The translations under genes were made by a program, and so were the position numbers. From Ruania alba (GTDB lineage Bacteria; Actinomycetota; Actinomycetes; Actinomycetales; Beutenbergiaceae), in the NCBI RefSeq assembly GCF_900105765.1, contig NZ_FNTX01000001.1:930001-994000 (forward strand): a stretch of 64,000 nucleotides of DNA. Direction: 5' to 3'. The notes below the pieces were generated by a model. The model was given only the letters and a program-made list of their open reading frames with translations, was not told the DNA's origin and ran no database searches. The stretch's first letter is position 1. Each line of letters begins with the position of its first letter. Below, one piece after another: positions 9,566 through 64,000 of the stretch.

Positions 9566-11247
9566 GCCACCCCCACCCCGACCTCAAGCCTCCCGGGCCC
9601 CTGGCGCAGGGAGCGCTGCGCATCGTTCCCCTCGGAGGGCTCGGTGAGGTCGGGCGGAACATGGCGGTGCTGGAGTTCGCCGGCCGTCTGCTGGTGATCG
9701 ACTGCGGCGTGCTCTTCCCCGAGGACCACCAGCCCGGGGTCGACCTGATCCTGCCGGACTTCAGCTACATCGAGGACCGGATGGACCAGGTCGAGGCCAT
9801 CGTGCTCACGCACGGTCACGAGGATCACATCGGTGCTGTCCCGTACCTCCTGCGATTGCGCAAGGACATCCCGATCGTGGGCTCCAAGCTGTCGCTCGCC
9901 TTCATCGCCGCCAAGCTCAAGGAGCACCGGATCAAGCCGGTGCTGCGTGAGGTGGCCGAGGGGCAGAGGCAGAAGGTCGGGCCGTTCGACCTGGAGTTCG
10001 TGGCGGTGAACCACTCGATCCCGGACGCTCTGGCCGTCGCGGTACGTACGCCGGCAGGGATGGTGCTGCACACCGGCGACTTCAAGATGGATCAGCTTCC
10101 GCTGGACTCGCGCATCACCGATCTCCGCGCTTTTGCCCGCCTCGGCGAAGAGGGCGTGGACCTGTTCATGACCGACTCCACGAACGCCGAGGTGCCGGGG
10201 TTCACCACCTCCGAGCGGGACATCGGTCCGGTGCTGGACGGCGTCTTCGCCCAGGCCGAGGGCCGGATCGTGGTGGCCTCGTTCTCCTCGCACGTGCACC
10301 GCGTGCAGCAGGTGCTCGATGCCGCCCATGCCCACGGTCGCCGAGTGGCGCTGGTGGGCCGGTCCATGGTGCGGAACATGACGATCGCCTCCGAACTGGG
10401 CTACCTCAAGGTGCCGGACGGGGTGCTGATCGACGTCAAGAAGATCGACGACCTGCCCGAGGACCGGATGGTCCTGATGTGCACGGGCTCCCAGGGGGAG
10501 CCGATGGCGGCGCTCTCCCGGATCGCGAACCGCGACCATCGGGTCTCGGTGGGTCCGGGCGACACGGTGATCCTCGCGTCCTCCCTGATCCCCGGCAACG
10601 AGAACGCGGTGTTCCGGATCATCAACGGGCTGATCCGCCTCGGGGCCAAGGTGGTGCACCAGGCCAATGCGCGCGTGCACGTCTCTGGGCATGCGTCGGC
10701 CGGTGAGCTGCTCTACTGCTACAACATCGTGCGTCCGAAGAACGTGATGCCGGTGCACGGTGAGGTCCGGCACTTGGTAGCGAACGGGGCGCTCGCGGTG
10801 AAGACGGGCGTCCCGCCGGAGCGGGTGGTGCTTGCCGAGGACGGCGTGGTGGTCGATCTCGTGGACGGGAAGGCCAGGATCGCCGGCGCGGTCCCGTGCG
10901 GGTACGTCTATGTGGATGGATCCTCCGTCGGCGGGGTGACCGAGGCCGAGCTCAAGGACCGTCGCATCCTCGGTGAAGAAGGGTTCATCTCGATCTTCGC
11001 CGTGGTCGACTCCTCCACCGGCGCCGTGGTGGCCGGACCCGAGCTGCATGTGCGTGGCGTGGCCGAGGGGGAGGACAAGCTGGCCGAGATCGTGCCGGAG
11101 ATCACCAAGGCGTTGAAGGAAGCCGCCGAGGGTGGCAACGCCGATACGCATCAGATGCAGCAGGTGGTGCGCCGGGTGGTCGGTCGCTATGCCTCGAGCC
11201 GGCTGCGGCGGCGGCCGATGATCATCCCGGTGGTCGTGGAGTCCTGA
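9562..11247 (+). CDS. rnj: ribonuclease J
   Basis: Bifunctional 5'-3' exo- and endoribonuclease of the metallo-beta-lactamase/beta-CASP group, working in mRNA decay and rRNA maturation. The 561-residue protein has the zinc motif HGHEDH at residues 84-89, the downstream ligand HTGDFK, the beta-CASP domain (FSSHVHRVQQVLDAAHAHGRRVALVGRSM), GSQGEPMAAL, and the C-terminal HVSGHAS and MPVHGE motifs. Full length for RNase J. Together with pnp it places two RNA-decay enzymes about 5 kb apart. Confidence 0.96.
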   Translation: MSHPHPDLKPPGPLAQGALRIVPLGGLGEVGRNMAVLEFAGRLLVIDCGVLFPEDHQPGVDLILPDFSYIEDRMDQVEAIVLTHGHEDHIGAVPYLLRLRKDIPIVGSKLSLAFIAAKLKEHRIKPVLREVAEGQRQKVGPFDLEFVAVNHSIPDALAVAVRTPAGMVLHTGDFKMDQLPLDSRITDLRAFARLGEEGVDLFMTDSTNAEVPGFTTSERDIGPVLDGVFAQAEGRIVVASFSSHVHRVQQVLDAAHAHGRRVALVGRSMVRNMTIASELGYLKVPDGVLIDVKKIDDLPEDRMVLMCTGSQGEPMAALSRIANRDHRVSVGPGDTVILASSLIPGNENAVFRIINGLIRLGAKVVHQANARVHVSGHASAGELLYCYNIVRPKNVMPVHGEVRHLVANGALAVKTGVPPERVVLAEDGVVVDLVDGKARIAGAVPCGYVYVDGSSVGGVTEAELKDRRILGEEGFISIFAVVDSSTGAVVAGPELHVRGVAEGEDKLAEIVPEITKALKEAAEGGNADTHQMQQVVRRVVGRYASSRLRRRPMIIPVVVES

Positions 11248-11255
11248 TCTGTTGA

Positions 11256-11843
11256 TCAGCTGGTGCCCGTCCTGAGGTCGTGCGCGGCGGTGCCGAGCAG
11301 CGCGGCCCGGTAGCGCTGGTCCTGCTCGTCGGCGTCGCCCGGCAGCAGGCCGGCCAGCTCGAGCCCGACCAGGCCGTGCACGAGCGCCCAGAGCCGCAGC
11401 GCTTCGGTCTCGACGTGCGCGTCGTCGGTGTCCGGGTGCACCCGGGCGACCGCGGTCACGAGCACCCTGAACGTGGGGTGCGCGGTGCTATCGGTCCCGG
11501 AGCGTAGGGTGCCGGGACCGAACAGCACCCGGTAGAAGTGCGGGTCGGCGAGGGCACTGCGCCGATATGCCAGCCCCAACTCGAAGAGGTCGGCCGACGG
11601 ATCGTCGCTCGGTGCCACGGACTGCAGGTGTTCCGCGAACCGCGTGAAGCCCTCGTCCACCACAGCGTGCACGAGCTCGTCCCGCCCGCCGAAGAGCGTG
11701 TACACGGCGGCTGTGGTGGTCTCCGCGGCGCCGGCGAGCTGCCGCAGCGAGAACCTGTCGGCGCCATGGGTGGAGATCAGCCGCGAGGCATGGTCGAGCA
11801 GGCGTCGTCGAACGGCGTCGTCGTACTGGCGAGGTCTGGCCAC
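11256..11843 (-). CDS. TetR-family transcriptional regulator
   Basis: A 195-residue regulator with a standard TetR helix-turn-helix: DHASRLISTHGADRFSLRQLAGAAETTTAAVYTLFGGRDELVHAVVDEGF near the N-terminus, then an all-helical ligand domain of the WHG type (LWALVHGLVGLELAGLLP). The GTG at 11843 (product starting MARPRQYDD) is preferred; an upstream TTG at 11867 would add eight residues that do not resemble the family start and would overlap the promoter. It is divergent from a small membrane protein across a 31-bp palindrome, so it most likely represses that gene and perhaps itself. The ligand is unknown. Confidence 0.9.
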   Translation of the reverse strand: MARPRQYDDAVRRRLLDHASRLISTHGADRFSLRQLAGAAETTTAAVYTLFGGRDELVHAVVDEGFTRFAEHLQSVAPSDDPSADLFELGLAYRRSALADPHFYRVLFGPGTLRSGTDSTAHPTFRVLVTAVARVHPDTDDAHVETEALRLWALVHGLVGLELAGLLPGDADEQDQRYRAALLGTAAHDLRTGTS

Positions 11844-11878
11844 ACCGACGAGGGTACCCCTTGACAAGGGTTCTCACA

Positions 11879-11909
11879 CGCTGTTTGCTAACAGTGTTAG
11901 GAAACAGCG
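11879..11909. promoter_or_regulatory. 31-bp near-perfect palindrome, probable TetR operator
   Basis: Arms 11879-11893 and 11895-11909 are inverted copies with 14 of 15 positions matching around a single central G; the core is CTAACAGTGTTAG. It sits between the divergent TetR gene and the membrane-protein gene. TTGACA at 11861-11866 is a good -35 for the membrane-protein gene, which would put its -10 inside the palindrome. Confidence 0.75.
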
Positions 11910-11931
11910 GACCGCGAACGAAGGATGTGCC

Positions 11932-12339
11932 GTGCTGACCCTTTCCACCGATGCCCAGACCACCGCGGGAATCGTGCTGCTCGCCGCGGTGACGGTGACC
12001 TCCGGCGGCGCCTTCCTCGCCCGCGTCGCTAGCGGCGGGGTCCCGGCGACGGAGTTCCAACGGTCCTTCTACCGCGCCGGGCATGGCCACGCGGGCATCC
12101 TGATCGTCTTCGGTCTGGTGTGCCTGCTGCTGGCCGAGTCGACGGCGCTCACCGGGTTCTGGCTCTGGCTCGCCCGGTCCGGGGTGCTGGTCGCCGCGAT
12201 CGTGATGCCGGCCGGCTTCTTCTTCTCTGCGATGGGATCAGGGCGAACCTCGCCGAACCGCTGGGTGTTCCTGATCGTGGCCGGCGGCGCTGTGCTGGTC
12301 GCCGGACTGGTCACGCTCGCAATCGGCCTGCTCGCCTGA
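11932..12339 (+). CDS. small four-helix membrane protein, putative TetR target
   Basis: A 135-residue protein with four predicted membrane helices (about residues 11-30, 54-71, 77-97 and 110-133) and a conserved-looking FYRAGHGHAGIL segment between helices 1 and 2 that brings two histidines to the membrane edge. I do not recognise a named family; similar uncharacterised actinobacterial membrane proteins exist. The GTG at 11932 follows a GAACGAAGGA stretch. The open frame continues upstream to 11644, but that part is antisense to the TetR gene and is not expected to be translated. Placement next to a palindrome and TetR suggests ligand-induced expression. Confidence 0.75.
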   Translation: MLTLSTDAQTTAGIVLLAAVTVTSGGAFLARVASGGVPATEFQRSFYRAGHGHAGILIVFGLVCLLLAESTALTGFWLWLARSGVLVAAIVMPAGFFFSAMGSGRTSPNRWVFLIVAGGAVLVAGLVTLAIGLLA

Positions 12340-12446
12340 GTCACGATCGGTGAGCAGGCTCGCCTTCGCCCACCCGCGGCACCTTTCACCGGTTGTGCGC
12401 GTGTCAGTCCCGCAGGTTCCGCCGTCGACCTGGTTGAGTGGCTTGC

Positions 12447-12458
12447 GACAGGCCTGTC
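12447..12458. promoter_or_regulatory. 12-bp perfect palindrome upstream of ftsK
   Basis: GACAGGCCTGTC reads the same on both strands and lies 36 bp before the ftsK ATG in an otherwise featureless 154-bp gap. It could be an operator; no known factor is assigned. Confidence 0.3.
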
Positions 12459-12493
12459 TCGGCATGCCTGATTGAGGAGGGACGACTCACATC

Positions 12494-15226
12494 ATGGCGA
12501 CCCGTACGACTTCCCCCGCACGGTCCGCCGCACCAGGACGCAAGAAGAGCGCGAGCGCCACCAAGGCGAACGCGTCGCGTTCTCGCGGAAAGAGCACGGC
12601 ACCACCCAAGCCACCGCTGCCGATCCGGATCGTGCGGGGCCTGTGGATGGGCACGGCGCATGTGGTCGGCGGGACCGCCCGCTCGATCGGATCCGGTGCC
12701 AAGGGACTCGACCCTGCCCACCGGCGGGACGGGCTCGCCTTCCTGCTCCTCGCGCTTGCCGTGATCGTCGCCGTCCGGGAGTGGTTCGGTCTCTCCGGGG
12801 ACGCCGGTGACTGGGTGCACGCCGCTGCTGCCGGCGGGGTGGGCCTGCTGTCCGTGGTGATCCCACTGATCCTGGTCTTCCTCGCCATCCGGCTGATGCG
12901 GCATCCGGACCGCGGAGAGGTGAACGGCCGCATCACCATCGGGTTGAGCGCGATCGTGGTCTCGGTGTGTGGCCTGGTGCACGTGGCGTCGGGACTGCCC
13001 GCGCCACCGGACTGGTTCGACGTGTTCGCCGCCGGTGGCCTCATCGGGTGGGTCGCGGCCAATCCGATCTCGGCAGCCCTGACGATCTGGGTCACGATCC
13101 CGCTGCTGGTGCTGCTCGGGTTCTTCGGACTGCTGGTGGTCACGGCCACTCCGGTGGCAGCGATCCCGCGACGCTTCCGGCAAGGTCTGGACTGGATCAC
13201 CGGGCAGGACGTCGATGCCGAGGTGAACGATGATGCGAGCCACGACAGTGAGGTCGCGCCCGCTGACGGTGATGATCTGGCCGCCACGGCGGTGAGCAAG
13301 CGCCGCAAACGAGCCCGCAAGGCTGGCGCCGAACCTGCCGTGGAGCCGGGTGCGTTCCACGGCGACGAGGCGTTCGAGCAGGCTGCTGAGCTTGCCCCTG
13401 ACGACGCAGCACCGGCCCCGAGGCCTGGTCGCGGTGCGGCACCAGCGGCACCGCCGGAGGCTTCGGCGGAGCCGGCACCCGAGGAACTGGCTGCCCCGCC
13501 GACGGAGGCACTGCCGGCCCGGGCGGAACAGCTCGTGCTCGACCCTGGCATGACCTATACGCTTCCGGGCGACGAGACGCTGCTCCAGGGACCACCGCAC
13601 AAGACCCGGTCCGCAGCGAACGACCGCGTGGTCGAGGCACTCACCGCGGTGCTCACCGACTTCGGCGTGAACGCCGAAGTGACCGGGTTCACCCGCGGTC
13701 CCACGGTCACGCGCTACGAGGTGGAGCTCGGCGCCGGCGTGAAGGTGGAACGGGTCACCGCGCTGAGCAAGAACATCGCCTATGCGGTGGCGTCGGCGGA
13801 CGTGCGGATCCTCTCTCCGATCCCGGGCAAGAAGGCCATCGGTATCGAGATCCCGAACGCGGACCGCGAGACGGTGGCCCTGGGCGATGTGCTGCGTTCC
13901 GGACCGGCGCGGCGCACCGAGCACCCGATGGTGATGGGTGTGGGTAAGGATGTCGAGGGCGGCTACGTGGTGGCGAACTTGGCGAAGATGCCGCACATGC
14001 TCGTGGCTGGTGCCACTGGTGCCGGTAAGTCCTCGTTCGTGAACTCGATGATCACCTCGATCATGATGCGTGCCACTCCGGAGGAGGTCCGGATGGTGCT
14101 GGTGGACCCGAAGCGGGTCGAACTCACGATCTACGAGGGCATTCCGCACCTGATCACACCAATCATCACCAACCCGAAGAAGGCAGCCGAGGCCCTCGAA
14201 TGGGTCGTTCGGGAGATGGACACCCGGTACGACGATCTGGCGACCTACGGGTACAAGCACATCGATGACTTCAACCAGGGGGTGCGTAGCGGCAAGGTGA
14301 AGCCGCTGCCGGGTAGCGAACGCACGATCACCCCCTACCCGTACCTGCTGGTGATCGTGGACGAGCTCGCCGACCTGATGATGGTGGCACCGCGTGACGT
14401 GGAGGCCTCCATCCAGCGGATCACTCAGCTCGCGCGCGCTGCGGGGATCCACCTGGTGCTCGCCACCCAGCGCCCCAGCGTCGATGTGGTGACCGGTCTG
14501 ATCAAGGCGAACGTTCCCTCACGGCTGGCGTTCGCGACCTCCTCGCTTGCGGACTCGCGCGTGGTGCTCGATCAGCCCGGCGCCGAGAAGCTCATCGGAC
14601 AGGGTGACGCGCTGTTCCTCCCGATGGGTGCGGCCAAGCCCATGCGTGTGCAGGGTGCCTGGGTCACCGAGTCCGAGGTGCACGCCGTGGTCGACCACGT
14701 CAAGGCTCAGCTCAAGCCGAACTATCGCGAGGACGTGGTGGTTCCGCAGGTGAAGAAGCAGGTGGACGAGGACATCGGCGACGACCTCGACCTGCTCCTG
14801 CAGGCGGCCGAGCTCGTGGTGACCACACAGTTCGGATCCACCTCGATGCTGCAGCGCAAGCTGCGTGTCGGGTTCGCCAAGGCGGGTCGCCTGATGGACC
14901 TGCTGGAGTCGCGGGAGATCGTCGGCCCCTCGGAGGGATCCAAGGCGCGCGACGTGATGGTGCAACCGGACGATCTGCCCGCGACATTGGCCACCTTGCG
15001 AGGCGAGACTCCGCCGGCCGACGCCGCCGGGTCCGCCGACGCCGCCGGGTCCGCCGAGAGTGAGCCTGCCGCTGCCGCGGGCGGTGGTGTCGTCTACGAC
15101 GACGCCCACTACAGCGGGTCCCGTGGTGCGTTCGGCGACAGTGACGACTACGGCAGCGCCTATGCCGACGATGACGCCGAGGAGTCCGAGTCCGAGGACG
15201 CCTGGGCGCTCACCGACCGCCGGTGA
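12494..15226 (+). CDS. ftsK: DNA translocase FtsK
   Basis: Hexameric septal ATPase that pumps chromosome ends across the closing septum. The 910-residue protein has four membrane helices in the first about 220 residues, a Pro/Ala/Glu-rich linker (about 240-350), the RecA-like motor with Walker A GATGAGKSS (Lys512) and Walker B-type LLVIVDELADLMM, and a C-terminal gamma winged helix (AAELVVTTQFGSTSMLQRKLRVGFAKAGRLMDLLE) that reads polarity sequences. After the gamma domain there is an extra low-complexity tail with repeated ADAAGSA and an Asp/Glu/Tyr-rich end. The tail overlaps the convergent monooxygenase gene by 17 bp. Confidence 0.96.
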   Translation: MATRTTSPARSAAPGRKKSASATKANASRSRGKSTAPPKPPLPIRIVRGLWMGTAHVVGGTARSIGSGAKGLDPAHRRDGLAFLLLALAVIVAVREWFGLSGDAGDWVHAAAAGGVGLLSVVIPLILVFLAIRLMRHPDRGEVNGRITIGLSAIVVSVCGLVHVASGLPAPPDWFDVFAAGGLIGWVAANPISAALTIWVTIPLLVLLGFFGLLVVTATPVAAIPRRFRQGLDWITGQDVDAEVNDDASHDSEVAPADGDDLAATAVSKRRKRARKAGAEPAVEPGAFHGDEAFEQAAELAPDDAAPAPRPGRGAAPAAPPEASAEPAPEELAAPPTEALPARAEQLVLDPGMTYTLPGDETLLQGPPHKTRSAANDRVVEALTAVLTDFGVNAEVTGFTRGPTVTRYEVELGAGVKVERVTALSKNIAYAVASADVRILSPIPGKKAIGIEIPNADRETVALGDVLRSGPARRTEHPMVMGVGKDVEGGYVVANLAKMPHMLVAGATGAGKSSFVNSMITSIMMRATPEEVRMVLVDPKRVELTIYEGIPHLITPIITNPKKAAEALEWVVREMDTRYDDLATYGYKHIDDFNQGVRSGKVKPLPGSERTITPYPYLLVIVDELADLMMVAPRDVEASIQRITQLARAAGIHLVLATQRPSVDVVTGLIKANVPSRLAFATSSLADSRVVLDQPGAEKLIGQGDALFLPMGAAKPMRVQGAWVTESEVHAVVDHVKAQLKPNYREDVVVPQVKKQVDEDIGDDLDLLLQAAELVVTTQFGSTSMLQRKLRVGFAKAGRLMDLLESREIVGPSEGSKARDVMVQPDDLPATLATLRGETPPADAAGSADAAGSAESEPAAAAGGGVVYDDAHYSGSRGAFGDSDDYGSAYADDDAEESESEDAWALTDRR

Positions 15227-19045: not shown

Positions 19046-19209
19046 GGCGTTCCACACGGCGATCCACCCCCTAGGCTGGTGGGGACGGAACAGATCGACC
19101 GGTACGCGCGTTGTACACGGTGATGATGGATATGAAGCACGACGGTGTCAGCACACCGGGGTACGGTAAGACACCAATGATGACGGCAGAGCGAGAGGAG
19201 GGACGCACC

Positions 19210-19518
19210 ATGGTGGTTCTACGACGAGAGATCGGTGATGTCCTTCGTGGCGCTCGCCAGGGGCAGGGACGAACCCTGCGTGAGGTCTCCTCGGCCGCGC
19301 GCGTCTCGCTCGGATACCTCTCCGAGGTGGAACGCGGTCAGAAGGAAGCCTCCTCGGAGTTGCTCTCCTCCATCTGCGAGGCACTGAACATTCCGCTCTC
19401 GGTGGTGTTGCGTGAGGTCTCCGACCGCGTCGCACTCGCTGAAGGCATCGCGATCCCGGACACGATCCCGGCAGACTTCGTCAGCCAGTTCGGCCAGGAG
19501 GATCTGGCGACAGTCTGA
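19210..19518 (+). CDS. clgR: ClgR-type XRE transcriptional regulator
   Basis: A 102-residue regulator whose helix-turn-helix is [43 protein letters not shown], the ClgR signature. In Corynebacterium, Streptomyces and Mycobacterium ClgR activates clp protease and other stress genes and is itself degraded by ClpP. The ATG at 19210 is preferred because GAGGAGGGA precedes it at 6 bp; earlier in-frame starts at 19111 and 19177 have no such site. The C-terminal end ([13 protein letters not shown]) may be the degradation tag region. Followed by a strong hairpin. Confidence 0.93.
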
Positions 19519-19544: not shown

Positions 19545-19576
19545 CGAGAGGCACCGCCCATCGGCGGTGCCTCTCG
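19545..19576 (+). terminator. clgR terminator hairpin
   Basis: A perfect 14-bp stem (19545-19558 with 19563-19576) and a CATC loop, 26 bp after the clgR stop. No T-tract. It lies between convergent genes, so it may serve both strands. Confidence 0.8.
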
Positions 19577-19610: not shown

Positions 19611-20390
19611 TTACTCCGGCTGACAGGCGGGGCAGTGGAAAGCGGGTCGTTCGTAGGGCGCCGCTCCGACCGGTGCGACGGCGATCGTTCCGCCACAGCG
19701 GGGGCACGCCAGGCCGGTGCGTCCGTGCACGTGCGTGGGCTGGTCACGGATCCCGGTCGCGGTGAGCGTGGGTGCGTCCGCGGAGCGGCGCATCAAGGTC
19801 GCAGCGGTGGTGAAGACGGCGTGCACGTCACCCACGTCGCAGGCCGGCCGCCACGGGCTGATCCGGTGCCGCCACAGGGTCTCCGCGAGATAGATCGTGC
19901 CGATCCCGGCGGCCACGCTCTGATCGAGCAGGACTGCGCCGATCGGACGTTCTCCCTGAGTCCGGCAGTTCCGCACTGCTTGGTCGATATCGACCTCATC
20001 TGCCATCAGGTTCGGGCCGAGACGACGTAGCAACGTGGGTTCGTCGCGGGTCGCGATCAGGTCCACCATGCCGAGGTGGTCACCGACGCAGGTCCAGGCG
20101 CGGGTGGCGATGACCGCACGGATCATCGGGCGTCGCAGTGGTTCCGGGGGTGTGAGTGTGCGCCGCACCAGCCATCGTCCGTCCATCCGCAGATGCGTGC
20201 GCAGGGTGCGACCGTCGTCGATTCGGGTGAGCAGATGTTTGCCGTAGCAGATCGTCCCGAGGCTGCGGCGTCCCACCAGGTCGGCGCCGGAGACATCGGG
20301 CCACCGCACGTCTGCACGGATCAACGGGCCGCCTGCCAATGCCGCAGTGAGTCGGCGTGCGACCCGCAGCAGCACATCACCCTCTGGCAT
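19611..20390 (-). CDS. Fpg/Nei-family DNA glycosylase (endonuclease VIII-like)
   Basis: Base-excision repair glycosylase/AP lyase for oxidised bases. The 259-residue protein begins MPEGD, with Pro2 and Glu3 as the expected catalytic residues after methionine removal; a central helix-two-turn-helix (DQSVAAGIGTIYLAETLWRHRISPW) and a C-terminal zinc finger (CPRCGGTI then FHCPACQ) complete the family plan. Mycobacterial Nei2 is the closest named relative. It begins 3 bp after the lhr stop, so the helicase and glycosylase are one operon, an arrangement also known from mycobacteria (lhr next to nei2). Confidence 0.93.
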   Translation of the reverse strand: MPEGDVLLRVARRLTAALAGGPLIRADVRWPDVSGADLVGRRSLGTICYGKHLLTRIDDGRTLRTHLRMDGRWLVRRTLTPPEPLRRPMIRAVIATRAWTCVGDHLGMVDLIATRDEPTLLRRLGPNLMADEVDIDQAVRNCRTQGERPIGAVLLDQSVAAGIGTIYLAETLWRHRISPWRPACDVGDVHAVFTTAATLMRRSADAPTLTATGIRDQPTHVHGRTGLACPRCGGTIAVAPVGAAPYERPAFHCPACQPE

Positions 20391-62281: not shown

Positions 62282-64000
62282 ATGGCGACGAAGAACCAAC
62301 GAGCCAATCCGTTCACCGCCGTCGGCACGCCAGAACGCCGCCAGGCAGTGCTGCTGGTGATGCTGCTGGTGGTGGTGCTGGCCTTCACTGCCCGGCTCGT
62401 CTACGTCCAGGTGTTCGCCGGGCCCGGCCTGGCCGCAGCGGCGGTGCGGGACCGTAGTTTCACCTATACCGAGCCTGCACTGCGCGGATCGATCGTGGAC
62501 TCCGCCGGCACCGTGATGGCCGCCTCGGCTCAGACCTACCGGGTCGTGGTCAACCGGGACGCGATCCCTGCCTACCGCACCTGGGACGCCGACGGGGAGG
62601 TCACCGGGTACGGGGCGGCCGCTGCTGCGCGCGACCTCGCGCCGATCCTGGACAGGGACGTGAACACCCTCGGTGCCGAACTCGTCGGCGACGACAAGTA
62701 CTCCATCCTGGCCCGCGATGTGGCCCCCGAGGTCTGGCGCGAGATCGCGGCCCTGGGGATCCCCGGTGTCTCCGCCGAGGAGACCTTCGAGCGGGTGTAC
62801 CCCAACGGCAACACGGCCGGGCAGATTCTCGGCTGGGTGAACGCTGAAGGAGAAGGAGCTGCTGGCCTGGAGTCCACCCTGAACGACCGACTGCTCGGAA
62901 CCGACGGCGAGTTCACCGTGGAGATCGGTGCCACCGGCCAGGTGATCCCGACGGGGCAGAACGCCTCCACCCCACCGGTACCCGGGTGCGATGTGCGGCT
63001 CACCGTCAATGCCGACCTGAACTGGCAGGCACAAACGGTTGTTGACGACGCCGTCGATCGATACGGCGCCGAGTGGGGCGCCGCCGTCGTGATCGATGTG
63101 GACACCGGCAGGATCCTCGCCCTCGCCGACTCCGACGTGGTGGACCCGAACGACCCCGGTGCCTCGCGCTACACCGGTTCGCACGCCGTCCAGGACGTCT
63201 ACGATCCCGGCTCCACCGGCAAGGTGCTCACCGTGCTCTCGGCCCTGGAGGAGGGTGTGGTGACCCCGACCACGTCGGTCGAGGATCCCTACCGCCTCAC
63301 CACGGAGAACGGGCAGACGTTCCGCGACCACACCGAGCACCCGGACCAGATGCTGACCACCACCGGGGTGCTTGCCGAGTCGGCGAACACCGGCACGGTG
63401 AACATTGGCTCCCGGATGAGCGATGAGACCCGGTACGAGTACATGCAGCGCCTCGGCTGGGGCGAGCGCACCGGGATGGGCATGCCGGGTGAGACTGCCG
63501 GCATCTTGCACCACTACGAGGACTGGGACGGCGCGATGCGCTACACCACGATGTTCGGCCAGGGAGTCTCGGTGAACTTGCTGCAGAACACCGCGGTGTT
63601 CTCCACCATCGCCAACGGCGGGGTCCGGATGCCGATGAGCATCGTGGACGGGTACGACTGCGCGGACGGGTACGACCAGGTCGACCCCGGTGACCCGGTG
63701 CAGGTGGTCTCCGAGGAGTCCTCGGACCAGATGATCCGCATGCTGGAGAGCGTCGTCACCGACGCCGGGACTGGCGAGAACGCAGCCATCGAGGGTTACC
63801 GCATCGCCGGCAAGACCGGCACCGCGCAGATGCCGGACGCGAACGGTGAGCTCACCCAGGTCGCTGCCTCTTTCGTGGGGATCGCTCCTGCCGACGACCC
63901 GCAGATCGCGGTCGGTGTGGTGATGTACAACCCGGACACCGGCATCTACGGCGGGACGATCGCCGCACCCGTCTTCCAAGAGATCACGGCCTTCACCCTG
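62282..64000 (+). CDS. ftsI: peptidoglycan transpeptidase FtsI (PBP3), 5' part
   Basis: Septal class B penicillin-binding protein, open to the window edge (573 codons present, no stop). A single N-terminal helix (about 22-45), then a pedestal domain (LRGSIVDSAGTVMAAS, YRVVVNRDAIP) and the transpeptidase domain with all active-site motifs: Ser311-T-G-Lys314 in DPGSTGKVL, S367-A-N369, and K511-T-G in AGKTGTAQM. The frame is intact over the whole visible length. ATG at 62282 follows a GGGGACAGG stretch 11 bp after the ftsL-like stop. Confidence 0.95.
   Translation, partial: MATKNQRANPFTAVGTPERRQAVLLVMLLVVVLAFTARLVYVQVFAGPGLAAAAVRDRSFTYTEPALRGSIVDSAGTVMAASAQTYRVVVNRDAIPAYRTWDADGEVTGYGAAAAARDLAPILDRDVNTLGAELVGDDKYSILARDVAPEVWREIAALGIPGVSAEETFERVYPNGNTAGQILGWVNAEGEGAAGLESTLNDRLLGTDGEFTVEIGATGQVIPTGQNASTPPVPGCDVRLTVNADLNWQAQTVVDDAVDRYGAEWGAAVVIDVDTGRILALADSDVVDPNDPGASRYTGSHAVQDVYDPGSTGKVLTVLSALEEGVVTPTTSVEDPYRLTTENGQTFRDHTEHPDQMLTTTGVLAESANTGTVNIGSRMSDETRYEYMQRLGWGERTGMGMPGETAGILHHYEDWDGAMRYTTMFGQGVSVNLLQNTAVFSTIANGGVRMPMSIVDGYDCADGYDQVDPGDPVQVVSEESSDQMIRMLESVVTDAGTGENAAIEGYRIAGKTGTAQMPDANGELTQVAASFVGIAPADDPQIAVGVVMYNPDTGIYGGTIAAPVFQEITAFTL

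Follow-up and report, generated by a model that had tools for sequence, protein, structure and literature searches.

The short region between a TetR-type regulator gene and the divergent gene of a small membrane protein in Ruania alba contains a long palindrome, and this raises the question of whether the palindrome is itself the regulator's operator or part of an operator of different extent. In the 64,000-nt stretch of DNA that we analysed (hereafter the window) positions 11879-11909 read CGCTGTTTGCTAACAGTGTTAGGAAACAGCG, and 14 of the 15 arm positions pair around base 11894, just as a sequence-only reading of the region had described. Based on 200 first-order Markov simulations, odd-centred palindromes of at least 14/15 are expected 0.05 times per window and even-centred ones 0.025 times, making the palindrome rarer than chance. 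When its core, CTAACANTGTTAG, was sought elsewhere in the genome, as that reading had advised, it proved to occur at a single place in the 4.83 Mb. The two flanking genes, which are 88 bp apart, likewise turned out as claimed:

11256 to 11843, minus strand: gene of a TetR-family repressor (GTG start at 11843, 195 aa, TetR_N and TetR_C_33 domains), its alignment with the 27 divergent relatives beginning at residue 1
11932 to 12339, plus strand: gene, with a GTG start, of a 135-aa four-helix membrane protein, in which R48, H51 and H53 are invariant across 23 members

The regulator scores above the curated cut-offs for both of its domains (PF00440, 36.2 bits against 24; PF13305, 56.5 bits against 26.8), and the membrane protein matched no family in Pfam and NCBIfam scans, its four helices being those of an AlphaFold2 model with a mean pLDDT of 96.

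We then compared this region across relatives, seeking the membrane protein in 59 related genomes (19 matches, including the own genome) and in further genome contigs (16 loci). After removal of three duplicates (L021, L022 and L033, on the same contigs as L005, L008 and L015) 32 loci were left, and in 27 of them, counting the window, a TetR homologue with 43% identity or more is encoded divergently; the five without a close divergent TetR (L018, L019, L020, L035 and L036) were left out of the operator count. In 26 of the 27 loci we observed two abutting 13-bp sites with centres 13 bp apart, together with short flanks:

11870 to 11874, no strand: left flank, GTTCT in the window, GTTTC being the commonest base per position in the 27 loci
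11875 to 11887, no strand: operator site A, CACACGCTGTTTG, conserved across loci
11888 to 11900, no strand: operator site B, CTAACAGTGTTAG, core of the 31-bp palindrome
11901 to 11905, no strand: right flank GAAAC, the commonest flank bases in the 27 loci, mirroring the left-flank consensus about the A/B junction
11906 to 11909, no strand: AGCG, outermost right arm of the 31-bp palindrome, whose pairs were counted across relatives

Over the 27 rows A3, C4, G8, T9 and T10 of site A and T14, A16, C17, G21 and T22 of site B are invariant, the odd locus (L016) being kept in a forced 13-bp register for these counts. In L016 itself the two sites lie 22 bp, about two helix turns, apart, some 64 to 30 bases upstream of the membrane gene, and the 13-bp spacing is therefore not obligatory; this locus was left out of the outer-pair, promoter-geometry and residue-base tests, for which 26 loci remain. 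The conserved element is thus a pair of abutting 13-bp TetR-type repressor sites between the promoters of the regulator and the membrane-protein gene, and we regard it as very probably the operator of the divergent TetR regulator.

The overall dyad of the double site falls at the A/B junction, 6.5 bp to the left of the centre of the 31-bp palindrome, and a single dimer might conceivably read a composite dyad of about 34-36 bp there, in which case A and B would not be separate dimer sites. In its favour, symmetry about the junction exceeds that of shuffled sequences in the 26 loci, both for flank pairs (3.38/5 versus 2.69) and for site pairs (9.46/13 versus 8.82), with shuffles that ignore the kinship of the loci, and it reaches up to 15/17 in L007 and L008. 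However, each 13-bp site is palindromic by itself, both persist at the wider spacing of L016, and the extent usual for one TetR dimer is described as approximately 15 bp, with a 13-bp palindrome for BioQ (PMC9210681); we accordingly consider a composite dyad unlikely. Less likely still is the proposal that the 31-bp palindrome itself, as a single long dyad at 11894, is the operator, to which one dimer, or else dimers stacked around site B, would bind, the right side supplying a third half-site. Such an operator would be in keeping with the arms of the window and of a same-genus locus (L004, 12/15), and with a left half resembling a further site at 13-bp spacing in L004 (9/13), weakly in L005 (7/13) and in the window (6/13). 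Against it, B-centred arms reach at least 12/15 in just these two of the 27 loci and at most 10/15 in the other 25. The nine outer pairs, 8/9 of which match in the window, average 3.36/9 in 25 relatives, no better than the 3.77 obtained with right flanks shuffled among loci, and the last four fall from 4/4 to a mean of 0.8/4; relatives lack the right arm. The palindrome is made up of the right half of site A, all of site B, the GAAAC flank and, at its right end, four bases that are not conserved. Hence, because the outer arms are not conserved, we rejected the 31-bp dyad as the operator unit: the long half-sites envisaged by the sequence-only reading give way to two abutting 13-bp sites, and its expectation of conservation beside the gene pair holds for the double site but not for the outer arms.

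A hairpin in RNA or DNA as the main role of the palindrome, or its origin by chance, is very improbable, for although a second palindrome of 14/15 with a central loop starts at 19546, the promoter position, the cross-genus conservation and the recognition-helix association all speak against it, as does the lack of a terminator-like site within 11000-13000. This second palindrome (19546-19575, GAGAGGCACCGCC...GGCGGTGCCTCTC), the one further place in the window where 14/15 is reached, follows an ORF at 19111-19518 and precedes the end of a minus-strand ORF at 19611-20390, and is perhaps a shared transcription terminator. A 13/15 palindrome at 63579-63608 (GAACACCGCGGTGTTC) lies within a long plus-strand ORF (62282-64000) whose translation resembles a penicillin-binding protein, and is probably due to chance.

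Returning to the double site as the operator, we examined its position relative to the promoters of both genes, which it overlaps within the short intergenic region:

11861 to 11866, plus strand: TTGACA, -35 of the membrane-protein gene, with a conserved distance from its start to site A
11884 to 11889, plus strand: TTTGCT, probable -10 of the membrane-protein gene, across the A/B junction at 17-bp spacing from TTGACA
11851 to 11856, minus strand: TACCCT, probable -10 of tetR, 7 nt before the start codon
11874 to 11879, minus strand: GTGTGA, possible weak -35 of tetR as counted from the -10, overlapping site A

The perfect TTGACA and the overlap of the palindrome with the probable -10 had both been recognized in the sequence-only reading and are confirmed here. 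The geometry is nearly fixed across loci: TTGAC[A/C/G] begins 14 bp (15 in three loci) before site A in 25 of the 26 loci, so that in those 25 a hexamer resembling a -10 spans the A/B junction after a spacer of 17 or 18 bp; in L017 no such -35 was found. On the other strand TANNNT, searched for within 25 bases of the tetR start, is kept in 26/26 loci at 6-8 nt upstream of that start, and the position of this -10 suggests that the tetR transcript is probably leaderless. A simple promoter scan of 11000-13000 called no promoter, as TTTGCT fails the scan's second-hexamer rule. With the double site overlapping both promoters, one bound element would block both.

To gauge specificity, the pattern ACRSYGTTNNNTAACRSYGTT was searched in 394 genomes of the class; it matched in 23 of them, and a reversed control pattern matched in none. 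In 13 of the 23 it lies between this tetR and the membrane gene, and in the other ten, all of one genus (L082-L091, position about 1501), it lies beside other genes. None of these ten loci gave a membrane-protein match, and a weak TetR match (E 7e-4) was found in L090 alone. In the two that were scanned with Pfam (L082 and L083) a different TetR_C_33 protein adjoins the site; the divergent neighbor in L083, the one locus of the ten with its ORFs listed, reads like an MMPL transporter, a name taken from its sequence rather than from a database match. The occurrence of the pattern beside other TetR_C_33 genes suggests that this operator type may be common to more than one TetR_C_33 regulator, and its occurrence beside unrelated genes in ten genomes means that this regulator cannot be recognised from the pattern alone. 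In the own genome it is found at a single place with no mismatch; with two mismatches allowed there are four matches, comprising three overlapping readings here and one unrelated place on contig 2. Among the 29 loci of the class scan (L041-L069, a set that includes the window and overlaps the first 27 loci) a TetR match was found in 19, in 18 of which the element occurs with no more than two mismatches; in the ten without a TetR match it is absent (at least five mismatches). In L052 no operator was found, the best match in the 200 bases upstream showing five mismatches. At about position 1501 of that locus the matched tetR and membrane-gene stretches abut, leaving no intergenic region, perhaps through a natural deletion.

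The bases of the operator also vary with the regulator. Across the 26 loci we compared the first 62 regulator residues with the operator bases in 6480 association tests, the best of which pairs T at residue 43, in the recognition helix, with G at operator position 12 (15/0/0/11), while S at residue 45 goes with G1 and C24 (5/0/1/20). By alignment to TetR, residues 43 and 45 fall at base-contacting positions. Ranks two to four go to residues that lie outside the recognition helix, namely 20 (with position -3, P 4e-6) and 6 (with position 13, P 1e-5), so that shared ancestry contributes; the loci being related, these P values cannot be read as true probabilities. In L007 the base C24 is present but S45 is not, and L010 has S45 like the Cellulomonadaceae/Promicromonosporaceae group, yet is placed outside that group in a tree that is largely unresolved and in which L010 sits on a long branch. 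In the 27 regulators the commonest residue has a mean frequency of 0.80 in the recognition helix versus 0.65 in the ligand domain. Recognition-helix residues 43 and 45 thus covary with operator bases among related rows.

The closest parallels lie among well-described TetR systems. TetR regulators less than 200 bp from a divergent neighbor are mostly described as its repressors (PMC3511530). The arrangement resembles TetR/tetA, in which a divergent regulator and membrane-protein gene are described as sharing intergenic operators with both promoters repressed (PMC3511530), except that two 15-bp operators there correspond to two abutting 13-bp sites here, and that the target here is no known pump. 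TetR proteins that bind as two dimers are reported to have operators of 22-32 bp, as for QacR, CgmR, CprB and MS6564 (PMC4150764), a range into which the two 13-bp sites (26 bp plus flanks) fall by sequence alone; their abutment at 13-bp centre spacing sets them apart from those systems. At 10.5 bp per turn this spacing would put the dimers approximately 86 degrees apart around the helix, unlike the 130-145 degrees given for QacR, CprB, CgmR and SlmA (PMC4150764), which counts against a two-dimer reading. MAB_4384 of Mycobacterium abscessus, regulator of mmpS5/mmpL5, is also a divergent TetR regulator, and its 27-bp operator is described as two degenerate 13-nt inverted sequences with a 1-nt spacer, shortening of the repeats impairing binding (PMC5895659); we liken the two by this operator description, in which the site forms one 27-bp palindrome and the target is an MmpS/MmpL pump. 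Finally, BioQ of Corynebacterium glutamicum reads a 13-bp palindromic site of AAC/GTT halves, TGAAC-N3-GTTAC (PMC9210681), although a single site is quoted there and its target differs.

What the operator controls is less familiar. The membrane-protein family occurs in 51 of the 394 genomes of the class, two of them as marginal partial matches only, and R48, A49, G50, H51, H53 and A54 are invariant in 23 members, one from Deinococcus. A Foldseek search of the PDB with the model gave no match at E of 0.001 or below; styrene oxide isomerase (8pnu) came first (TM-score 0.73 by query length, E 0.1) and LTC4 synthase next. By VIA-align, styrene oxide isomerase scored Z 10.3 (rmsd 3.0 over 129 residues), LTC4 synthase Z 10.3 (rmsd 3.8 over 124 residues) and parts of respiratory oxidases Z about 9-10, on a scale where helical bundles may reach Z 13 by common arrangement without kinship. 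We tried sequence homology to styrene oxide isomerase (StyC) and found it unsupported (hhalign of the 23 members versus five StyC proteins, E 0.36, probability 0.2), and a profile search of PDB sequences gave no StyC match at E up to 10, its best match being Modulator of smoothened (E 0.022 with profile A1, 0.21 with profile A3). The MAPEG enzymes (LTC4 synthase, mPGES-1 and MGST2) share the four-helix fold at Z about 9-10, but none of the 23 members matches Pfam MAPEG (PF01124) at E up to 1. No MAPEG genes were found in 39 related genomes by a search that, run as a control, was positive in three of 14 known genomes.

The likeness to StyC extends to a conserved His early in helix 2; in StyC haem b is described on an axial His at the trimer interface (PMC11374702, PMC12502698). 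The local hhalign alignment, however, pairs that residue, H58, with R48 and not with H51 or H53. Lys plus Arg average 2.3 in loop 1 and 2.7 in loop 3 of the 23 members versus 0.04-0.13 elsewhere, which suggests that these loops are inside and the termini on the other side, with the His pair of helix 2 in its cytosolic half. As both termini of StyC are described as cytosolic (PMC12502698) and its axial His58 as following a periplasmic loop (PMC11374702), the orientation of the membrane protein, judged by charge, would be opposite, which leaves a role in haem binding or catalysis as no more than a lead. Literature searches on the operator letters (judged by title and start of abstract), on the motif RAGHAHAG and its variants and on TetR_C_33 returned nothing on this system.

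The gene neighborhoods of the family provide further context. In the window the pair is flanked by genes for RNase J and FtsK, and in the 18 loci of the window's own family (L002-L016 and L018-L020) RNase J lies beside the pair in 15, the best piece in L004 and L005 being its last 31 residues only, and FtsK in 13. Over all 32 loci there are 16 RNase J and 18 FtsK matches; with flanks of mostly 1.5 or about 3 kb, missing matches do not amount to absences. Viewing the neighbors of 13 loci, we found co-directional TetR-like genes in L018, L020, L055, L058, L063 and L066, a TetR-like gene (32% identity) in divergent orientation but lacking this operator in L035, and divergent MerR-like genes in L062, L064, L068 and L069, these names being sequence readings except for the TetR matches in L018, L020 and L035. 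The Deinococcus member has a MarR gene nearby with one gene between. Upstream of the membrane gene in L062, L064 and L068, beside the MerR-like gene, ACTATC/GATAGT repeats replace the TetR operator; one half of this repeat occurs beside the MerR-like gene of L069, and L019 has similar repeats. Such varied regulators fit a protein that is required solely in the presence of a chemical signal.

Beside these computed features, namely conservation, spacing, promoter geometry, uniqueness and the residue-base association, we propose a mechanism in which the TetR-family protein encoded at 11256-11843 would bind the two adjoining 13-bp sites (11875-11900), probably with two dimers, a detail of which we are less sure. 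On the membrane-protein promoter the bound protein would mask the -10 with part of the spacer, and on its own promoter the -35 region, and would so repress both genes. A small ligand in the TetR_C_33 domain would release the regulator, in line with the tight ligand switch that the sequence-only reading had anticipated, upon which the four-helix inner-membrane protein would be made, perhaps acting as a membrane-embedded detoxifying or cofactor-binding protein. The likeliest reading, in which we have considerable confidence, is that sites A and B are occupied by the TetR protein, both genes staying repressed as long as no ligand dislodges it. Far more tentatively, and as a possibility we would not rate highly, these proteins may constitute an uncharacterised family of membrane enzymes that are small, have four helices and perhaps form trimers and bind haem or a metal, with invariant R48, H51 and H53 in helix 2 and a fold akin to those of styrene oxide isomerase and MAPEG, the expression of each being turned on by a dedicated small-molecule sensor (of TetR, MerR or MarR type, by lineage) against a lipophilic toxicant.

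The operator is thus real, conserved and ordinary in kind, its extent having been misread as that of the 31-bp palindrome, and the system is most likely a self-regulated switch of familiar type whose target protein is the interesting part and the one worth following. For a TetR_C_33 regulator the double site offers a precise predicted operator, with two 13-bp sites at fixed spacing and bases that vary with recognition-helix residues. At the same time it points to an unannotated membrane-protein family, the members of which often occur beside regulators of different families, and the regulator's ligand could reveal the substrate of that family.
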